Translations under genes and position numbers: made by a program
Assembly (NCBI GenBank): GCA_002726315.1
Contig: PBSS01000029.1
Span: forward strand, 1 to 45,016
Direction: 5' to 3'
DNA: 45,016 nt
Origin: Acidimicrobiaceae bacterium
Lineage (GTDB): Bacteria > Actinomycetota > Acidimicrobiia > Acidimicrobiales > MedAcidi-G1
Notes under the pieces: generated by a model
Databases searched by the model: none
Seen by the model: the letters and a program-made list of their open reading frames with translations, nothing else
Told to the model about the DNA's origin: nothing
In this document: in pieces, positions 16,517 through 19,122 of the stretch
Layout: each line of letters begins with the position of its first letter
Position numbering within the stretch: position 1 is the first letter of the stretch

Positions 16517-17020
16517 TCAGGGGGTGGCAGGAGTTCCGACGTATGGCATCGGATCTCCAGCAGCTGGGATCTCCGGTCGAGTCCACGCGGTCAGATTGGC
16601 CAGGTCGGTTGCAACCGATCGCCATGCTTCAGGGTCCCAGCCCTCGGCTATGCCGATTTGGTAGCCGTCCTGTCGGATAGTTACGAATGCCGGAAGAGTC
16701 GAGAGGCCAAGAGAATGCACGAACTCACGGTCGGGATCGGCAAGGCACAGAATCTCGTTGGCTAGTGGGCCAATGAACTTGTGGGCCCCTTCACTATCGG
16801 TTCCACTCACAACGAAGGCAACACGGACGTCGGCGCCACTGAATGCGGTAAGGATGCGACGGGCAGTGTCCAGGAGCCATGAACTCTCATGGGTGAACGG
16901 GTCCAGGACGACAGTCGCCATGTGGAAGGTCGTCAGCCATTCGAGGAGAGGACGCGATACCCCGCCCACCTGGTGCAACTGGGCCTCACTCAAGTTCTTG
17001 AGCGTCTCTGTGTCTGCCAC
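16517..17020 (-). CDS. Thioredoxin-fold-like protein lacking a CxxC
   Basis: 167 aa; VRVAFVVSGTDSEGAHKFIG...DPDREFVHSLGLSTLPAFVTIRQDG; cis-Pro-like LPAFV; only one Cys in the ORF. Confidence 0.6.
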   Translation of the reverse strand: MADTETLKNLSEAQLHQVGGVSRPLLEWLTTFHMATVVLDPFTHESSWLLDTARRILTAFSGADVRVAFVVSGTDSEGAHKFIGPLANEILCLADPDREFVHSLGLSTLPAFVTIRQDGYQIGIAEGWDPEAWRSVATDLANLTAWTRPEIPAAGDPMPYVGTPATP

Positions 17021-17107: not shown

Positions 17108-17644
17108 CTATTGCTTGCTAAGTCCTGCAAGGAGAGCACTGAAGGCACCGTCGGCAAGCGCCAACATCTCCTCGTCACTTCTGTCCTGAATAGGGTGGTC
17201 GACGAACACCCCTCGGACTGGTAGTCCGAGGGCTGCTGCTTGTACCTCTGCCGCGTCCTCGAAGGGCCCGGAGGCCACGAACACACCGGGAACTCCCCGG
17301 CGTTCAAGATCGTCGATGTCGTGCACACTGCACGTTGTACAGGATCCTCAATCAGCCAGTGCTTCTATGACAGCGTCGCAAGTGATTGCGATCTCGTGCC
17401 GCAAGTCAACCGGAGCTGGCTTGGTGAAGGTCGGCTTGGCATAGCGTTTCACGTAGACACCCAACTCAACGAGGTGTTCCTGCACCCTGTCGAGAAAGAT
17501 GTTTCCGCGGGGTTTTGAGATGTCGAGAAGTCCGACAGTGAGGCCAGTGAGAGTTTTGTGTCGGAGTGTTAGTTCGCGTTCGGCCGGGTGGCCCTCAGCC
17601 GTAGGGTCAAGGACCGTTAGGCCAGAATGAACGATGTCTGTCAT
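17108..17644 (-). CDS. UGSC-family selenoprotein with in-frame UGA (Sec) at 17350..17348
   Basis: ORFs 17348..17644 and 17108..17326 are in the same frame, separated by a single TGA: MTDIVHSGLTVLDPTAEGHPAERELTLRHKTLTGLTVGLLDISKPRGNIFLDRVQEHLVELGVYVKRYAKPTFTKPAPVDLRHEIAITCDAVIEALADUGSCTTCSVHDIDDLERRGVPGVFVASGPFEDAAEVQAAALGLPVRGVFVDHPIQDRSDEEMLALADGAFSALLAGLSKQ*. The UGSC motif names the family. Confidence 0.93.
17320..17334 (-). promoter_or_regulatory. Candidate bacterial SECIS element for the UGSC gene
   Basis: RNA after UGA: 13 nt, then CGUGCA-GUG-UGCACG (6-bp stem, 3-nt loop; equivalently CGUGC-AGUGU-GCACG with 5-nt loop, G at position 2). Confidence 0.72.
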
Positions 17645-19122
17645 GGCGTTATCTCCTTCGTTACGGGTTCGCTGCCGGACGGGCCGTTGATCCAGCCACC
17701 GATGATCGCTGAAAAGAGTCCAGCAGGTCCTCCGGCATGGACAACGAGCAGTCCACCAGGTCGAAACTTGGGTAGTGATAAGCCAGCGAAGTCTGTTGGT
17801 AGGCCCTCTTCGATATCTCCTGACCCAACCAGGATTGTGTCGGCATCTACCACTAGGTGGCTTGAGAGTTCGGCTGTAAAGCGGGAGCGGTTCCAGCCTG
17901 CATCCGCGTATCTGGCCATGTGCTCGGGCGACAGAACAAGCATTGCGTCCATGCCCATCACAACCCGTGATGAGACCGTACCTAGGAGGGATTCGGCCAG
18001 CGTTCGGGTGAGAGAATCCGCTGACCTGCTCTTTTGATCCATAACTAGGCGGGGCCCCTCACCTGTGAATGCTGTGACCGTGTTTTGGTTGGTGGCAAAG
18101 CCACGTTCTTCAGAAAGACTTGTCCACGGCGATCCAGCCTGGTCCTCTGCGAAGCAGAAACCCTGCTTTCCCATGTGGCCGAAGGTGGCCCTGTCGATGC
18201 CACCAGGTGAACCTCCGCCGACATTGTGGATCACCAGTTGGACGGCCCGGCCGATGGTGCTGTTAGCCCGGTTGCCGTGCCCGAGCACATTGATACTGTG
18301 ATTCATGTCGATCTTGCTCACGATTGGACCACTAACGACAAGTATCGGCCCAACGGACATTGTCGTGGCAAGTACACCGTGCATGTTGAAGTCGTCGGTG
18401 CACACGGCTTCAAGGGCTGTGAGTACCACAGGCAGGTATTCGGGCCGACAACCTGCCATGACGGCATTGATGGCGACCTTCTCCACCGTACATTCGATGA
18501 GGCGCGGTGGGATAACTGCGACGATTTCAGACGGATGCCGTGAAGTGCCTGAGAGCATCTGTTGGACGCGGCCCTCTGTTGGTGCAACGACCGGTAGGCC
18601 GTCCGTCCAACCTTTGTCGAACATTGCCTCACTATTGTCCTCAAGGGAAGCGAACCGGAGACGACGCGATTGAAGTGCTGCAATGGCATCAGAGCCGTCC
18701 TGTGGTGCCCCATACCTGCTCCTTAGTTCATCAACCCGCCCGGGGTCGGCTGTGAGAGAACCTCAACCAGGCTTGAAGGGTGGCAGGTCCAGCCCAAGGC
18801 CTTTTTGGCCAGTTAGGCCCTCCCAGGCGGCGCGCTGCCAGCCTGTCGTCCTCTCGACCTCATGGCCATCCTCAAATCGCAACAGCGTGGGAACGGCATC
18901 GAGATTCAATCCCCAACTCACCAGGAGATCGGTGTCGTCTACTACCCACTGCGCTTCGGCCGGGAAAGTGGGGTCATCCTGGGTAAACACCATCAGGTCA
19001 ATATCAGATGCCAATTGTTCAAGCACCGGAACCACCAACTGGCAGGTAGGGCACTCACTTTTTACTACTACTACGACACCGTCTTTCACTGGGGGAGAAC
19101 TCACATGGCGAGTATCGCGCAC
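17641..19122 (-). CDS. Candidate selenoprotein: thioredoxin (CPTC) domain + PGUGS motif + 'WTDGLPVVAPT' domain, in-frame UGA (Sec) at 18765..18763
   Basis: ORFs 18763..19122 (...VVVVKSECPTCQLVVPVLEQL...GLDLPPFKPG) and 17641..18624 (MFDKGWTDGLPVVAPTEGRVQQML...) are in the same frame; the 47-codon gap reads UGSLTADPGRVDELRSRYGAPQDGSDAIAALQSRRLRFASLEDNSEA with only one TGA. ATGA overlap with the UGSC gene. Start 19122 (GTG) or 19104 (GTG). Confidence 0.75.
18732..18748 (-). promoter_or_regulatory. Candidate bacterial SECIS element for the Trx-UGS fusion gene
   Basis: RNA after UGA: 14 nt, then CGACCC-CGGGC-GGGUUG; 6-bp stem (one G-U), 5-nt loop with G at position 2, loop begins 21 nt after UGA. 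Confidence 0.65.

Follow-up and report, generated by a model that had tools for sequence, protein, structure and literature searches.

Background

According to the 2008 Global Ocean Sampling (GOS) survey, UGSC is a major family of selenocysteine (Sec) proteins and, with 255 sequences in GOS, belongs to the selenoproteins that are most abundant in metagenomes of aquatic origin (PMC2398784). In the same data an uncharacterised domain, 'Unknown_1', occurs fused to UGSC (PMC2398784, Fig. S1A) and is not reported there as a selenoprotein itself. GrdB, another Sec protein, carries the motif UxxCxxC (PMC13188914), which is also found in UGSC (UGSCTTC). Here we describe a gene that lies directly upstream of a UGSC gene in a stretch of 45,016 nucleotides from an Acidimicrobiaceae bacterium (GCA_002726315.1, contig PBSS01000029.1), referred to as the window in the following. 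Two apparent genes at this place are very likely a single selenoprotein gene, which encodes a thioredoxin-like domain fused to a large C-terminal domain and is paired with UGSC.

The fusion protein resembles the UGSC family (PF24696/NF041046) in that a similar G-S follows the Sec residue, but it differs from it in fold and family. The original prediction had pointed to this likeness of the U-G-S context; the local similarity holds, while kinship does not, since the fusion protein gives no match to the models PF24696 and NF041046, which are matched by the neighbouring gene only. With the thioredoxin superfamily (TIGR01068, PF00085) the N-terminal domain shares the CXXC motif, the cis-proline and the fold. 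However, the fusion protein stays below the curated cut-offs of these models and possesses a PG(U/C)GS tail and a large fused domain. A protein with the order thioredoxin, PGUGS and C-terminal domain is not among the 119 prokaryotic selenoprotein families of the 2026 inventory (PMC13188914, Table 1). The novelty concerns an uncatalogued selenoprotein family with Sec in an unlisted position, whereas the class of thioredoxin-type redox selenoproteins as such is known. The C-terminal domain could be identical to 'Unknown_1', the domain mentioned in the GOS survey as fused to UGSC.

Results

The two open reading frames (ORFs) 18763..19122 and 17641..18624, both on the minus strand, lie in a common frame. 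The 47 codons with a single TGA that had been predicted to join them were confirmed as the TGA at 18765-18763 and 46 sense codons, and the junction peptide GLDLPPFKPG-U was found as quoted. The complete frame (17644-19122, minus strand) comprises 493 codons with this UGA as its sole interruption. It ends with a UGA of its own at 17643-17641, which overlaps the start codon of the UGSC gene as ATGA. Translation might start at GTG 19122 or at GTG 19104, of which the latter is more likely because it fits the lengths of the homologues better. Reading through the UGA yields, in this order, a thioredoxin-like N-terminus with the motif CPTC, the motif PGUGS with the putative Sec at position 120 (18763..18765), and a domain of approximately 330 residues beginning near GWTDGLPVVAPT.

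A read-through search over 296 genomes of the same class was positive for 110 genomes and yielded many full-length matches. After 80 named loci of GTDB genomes had been added and repeated loci removed, the set comprised 117 full-length homologues. Column 120 is occupied by Cys in 107 of them and by UGA in the remaining ten, so that the full-length homologues with Cys or Sec, which one Sec protein of about 493 residues led one to expect, do exist. No variation occurs at Cys24, Cys27, Cys225 and Gly119 among the 117 sequences. The Cys forms originate from Actinomycetota, Chloroflexota, Myxococcota, Acidobacteriota, Pseudomonadota and others, and those that were checked are continuous ORFs. The UGA forms stem from ten genomes, namely the window genome, four members of its family and five named metagenome-assembled genomes (L109, L110, L112-L114), which are mostly labelled Acidimicrobiaceae. 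G144 and G082 were considered as further Sec forms and rejected, since in both the TGA precedes the start codon and Cys occupies the Sec column.

These data bear directly on the possibility of two separate genes, with the UGA as a true stop and a C-terminal protein starting from ATG 18624. Such an ATG is indeed present, and relatives of the domain without thioredoxin exist elsewhere, as hypothetical proteins where annotated. However, Cys stands at this codon in 107 homologues, UGA falls precisely on the Cys column in nine further genomes, and the full-length homologues are continuous in one frame instead of starting at ATG 18624. The suggestion that the gap is protein-like was also borne out: the 46-codon junction is under purifying selection at the protein level, with a pooled ratio of nonsynonymous to synonymous changes (pN/pS) of 0.25, compared to 0.18 and 0.155 on the flanking sides. 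Considering also the hairpin codons described below, which are frozen in the Sec clade only, two separate genes are highly improbable. Even less credit can be given to a sequencing error or a decaying gene. The assembly is a draft of 53 contigs, but an error is excluded by the presence of UGA at column 120 in ten agreeing genomes, and decay is contradicted by pN/pS values that are low before as well as after the UGA, and by L185, which returned to Cys rather than losing the gene.

In a quick tree the UGA forms group within one acidimicrobial clade of 11 rows (SH-aLRT, the Shimodaira-Hasegawa-like approximate likelihood ratio test, 98), whose single Cys member is L185 from AG-439-B19. Parsimony requires two changes at column 120, and the simplest reading of the tree is one gain of Sec from Cys and one reversion in L185.

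Downstream of the UGA, a stem-loop at 18730..18750 (minus strand) resembles a bacterial selenocysteine insertion sequence (SECIS). It begins 13 nucleotides 3' of the UGA, and its 8-bp stem (+13 to +20 with +26 to +33; 5' arm 18750-18743, 3' arm 18737-18730) closes the loop CGGGC (18742-18738). Both the hairpin and this loop had been predicted correctly, the stem being given as 6 bp in the prediction. As in bacterial SECIS elements, the stem-loop is located just 3' of the UGA, and its small apical loop contains a G. The codons for P127 (CCC), G128 (GGG) and R129 (CGG), which form the loop and the adjoining stem, are identical in all ten Sec forms, and they are the sole single-codon columns among 136 invariant four- or six-fold degenerate columns of the Sec clade. 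The hairpin sequence is kept neither in L185 nor in the Cys forms shown. Over the alignment 96% of the stem cells are paired, compared to 17-50% if the stem is slid by one to three bases, and one stem pair switches from C-G to U-A in three sequences. At the level of sequence comparison, the stem-loop is thereby shown to be a SECIS-like element.

The window genome contains a tRNA-Sec with the anticodon UCA (67.5 bits, above the cut-off) and a SelD that is itself a Sec form with its own in-frame UGA (GAGUGCK). Four family relatives also possess tRNA-Sec, and so do all five named Sec genomes, above the cut-off and with UCA anticodon. SelA and SelB are adjacent in four of four genomes of the same family; in G246 they follow tRNA-Sec after approximately 12 kb on a single contig. 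We regard the Sec machinery as present on the basis of tRNA-Sec and the Sec form of SelD in the window genome, and of SelA and SelB from family relatives only. A general reassignment of UGA, for instance to Trp or Cys, might be considered in view of in-frame UGAs in two neighbouring genes. However, the fusion gene itself ends in a UGA overlapping the next start, the tRNA with UCA anticodon scores as tRNA-Sec, and among homologues of the fusion gene UGA occurs at the Cys column only, which leaves a reassignment with a negligible probability.

The partner gene (17111..17644, minus strand, stop TAG) encodes a UGSC selenoprotein of 178 amino acids and matches PF24696 with an E-value of 2.1e-39. 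Its Sec99 is encoded by UGA at 17348..17350 within the motif UGSCTTC. This codon is followed by a SECIS-like hairpin of its own (CGTGCA-GTG-TGCACG, 17320..17334, minus strand), whose codons AGT and GTG are the only single codons among 49 columns in the Sec clade. In the window, two consecutive genes for Sec proteins are thus linked by the ATGA overlap. The pairing of the fusion gene with UGSC is near-constant: among 115 loci holding both genes, they are co-oriented at 112 and on opposite strands at three. UGSC lies immediately downstream at 111 of the 112 co-oriented loci; the median gap is close to zero, and the exception is found at 3.9 kb. UGSC is a Sec protein throughout the set, since its Sec codon is recoded in 114 of 114 cases (113 UGA, one UAG). 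The UAG case is L149 (Blastococcus, NZ_HG931175.1), where codon 99 is TAG and tRNA-Sec has the anticodon CUA and is called tRNA-Pyl by ARAGORN, in agreement with the recoding of UAG as Sec reported for Geodermatophilaceae (PMC5330540).

The AlphaFold2 model of the fusion protein (mean predicted local distance difference test, pLDDT, 83.9) shows a thioredoxin fold for residues ~10-104 (18811..19095, minus strand). This domain contains the CPTC active site (19053-19042) and the cis-Pro motif VPT (P78, T79), and thus combines fold, CXXC and cis-Pro as is typical of the thioredoxin superfamily. The C-terminal domain (residues 167-493; 17644..18624, minus strand) carries the invariant Cys225 (18450-18448) and a G-GNRAN--IGR motif, and it is covered by no Pfam or NCBIfam model. 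A sequence search of the PDB with the fusion protein returned thioredoxins on the N-terminal domain only, besides chance-level matches. Foldseek matches of the C-terminal domain to class I fumarate hydratase and cyclic amide hydrolases were weak, had low TM-scores and were not used. The structure model of UGSC is flavodoxin-like (mean pLDDT 89), and a PDB sequence search with UGSC gave no matches.

The C-terminal domain also exists on its own. Stand-alone relatives, which are paralogues with about 31-47% identity, adjoin UGSC copies without a thioredoxin part, and Cys225 is kept in all 11 that were checked. Such paralogues (for example G187:C27, G075:C43, G248:C9 and the plasmid matches H3-H7) constitute an unnamed domain family. 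Many of them stand beside further UGSC copies in the surveyed bacterial genomes, and they are widespread, including haloarchaea. Where plasmid-borne relatives are annotated, they are termed 'hypothetical protein'.

UGSC and the GrdB/PrdB family (PF07355) have in common a UxxC motif and a predicted flavodoxin-like fold. Aligned to a profile of GrdB/PrdB-like Sec proteins of the same class, UGSC reached 73.6% in hhalign (E-value 2.9e-5) with the Sec columns aligned. As a control we can use the fusion protein itself, whose match to the GrdB profile was 5.8% and for which a GrdB-like nature was rejected. A search with PF07355 does not report UGSC, and no pyruvoyl subunit was recognised in the comparison with glycine and D-proline reductase; the likeness of UGSC to GrdB/PrdB Sec subunits is suggestive only. 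Short GrdB/PrdB-like proteins with an in-frame UGA in a PVUPLC-type motif also occur in the same class (L204-L217), and their PF07355 matches stop just before the Sec codon.

Two genes downstream of the fusion gene, a redoxin-like protein without CXXC is encoded at 16517..17020 (minus strand) and is a possible third gene of the locus. Relatives of it are located near the pair at 15 surveyed loci, including four of four genomes of the same family. Further neighbours in the window are a flavin reductase, an AMP-binding enzyme, a MauE-like protein and a hydroxyacid dehydrogenase, which do not point to one substrate.

Discussion

Some observations weigh against the interpretation of the locus as a pair of cooperating selenoproteins. 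SelA and SelB were not found in the window assembly (88% complete, 53 contigs), where the SelB search detected translation-factor paralogues only, below the cut-off. As to selB and selC, whose absence would argue against Sec decoding, selC is present and selB is seen in the four family relatives but not in this incomplete assembly. The tRNA-Sec gene occupies bases 4-95 of its contig (G000:C10:4-95) on the minus strand and points off the contig end, and the absence of selA and selB may be due to missing downstream sequence. The hairpin in the window pairs at seven of eight positions with one C.A mismatch, while most other Sec forms can pair at all eight. Its covariation is weak, with one pair showing two-sided changes and 47 of 500 shuffles attaining the score, and an Rfam search gave no SECIS family match. 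In free energy the hairpin of the window does not surpass shuffled sequences (z = 0.2), and Sec and Cys forms are not told apart by their energy z-scores. Energy is uninformative for the window alone, and the weight of the hairpin comes from its conservation. Furthermore, in most bacteria the family does its work with Cys, and Sec is hence not essential to the fold. Finally, contact between the fusion protein and UGSC, and a joint activity, are predictions from gene pairing.

The fusion protein and UGSC probably act as one redox enzyme, considering that UGSC is co-oriented with the fusion gene at 112 of 115 loci, nearly always as the next gene. UGA 120 is very likely read as Sec through the usual bacterial machinery of tRNA-Sec, SelA, SelB and SelD together with the SECIS-like hairpin, and the fusion protein would work with the UGSC encoded downstream, an expected contact to which the observed pairing points. 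Electrons might enter at the CPTC of the thioredoxin domain and then be handed to residue 120, a flexible relay that is Sec here and Cys in most relatives. From there they could go on to the Sec99/Cys102 site of UGSC or to an intermediate derived from the substrate; this reduction would take place in an active site to which the invariant Cys225 of the large domain also belongs. We propose this relay tentatively, at somewhat less than even chances.

It is also possible, if rather unlikely, that Sec120 itself is catalytic in a peroxidase- or reductase-like manner and that UGSC serves the same pathway as an enzyme of its own. The pairing of UGSC copies with C-terminal domains lacking the thioredoxin part is in favour of this, since it indicates that PG(U/C)GS is not needed for pairing. 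On the other hand, a complex is suggested by the strictly adjacent position of the genes and by their ATGA overlap, and Sec is located in a tail after the thioredoxin domain and not in a CxxU or UxxC motif. For the proposed joint enzyme, the same stand-alone relatives suggest that the C-terminal domain and UGSC form the catalytic core, to which the thioredoxin-PG(U/C)GS module is attached as electron supply. Whether the pair even constitutes a new type of two-Sec reductase, with a GrdB/PrdB-like subunit and a built-in thioredoxin and Sec relay, is doubtful, and we consider it distinctly less likely than not.

Conclusions

With the fusion gene the selenoproteins grow by a family whose members ordinary gene-calling programs will break into two. 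It is also a clean example of one gain of Sec from Cys and one apparent reversion, after which the SECIS sequence is no longer there. UGSC now has a partner that is almost always beside it and whose redox layout of CPTC, Cys/Sec120 and Cys225 is readable, and hosts carrying the Cys form make it possible to test the function of the pair. If the more far-reaching proposal is true, many free-living bacteria would possess such a two-Sec reductase, in most cases with a Cys relay.
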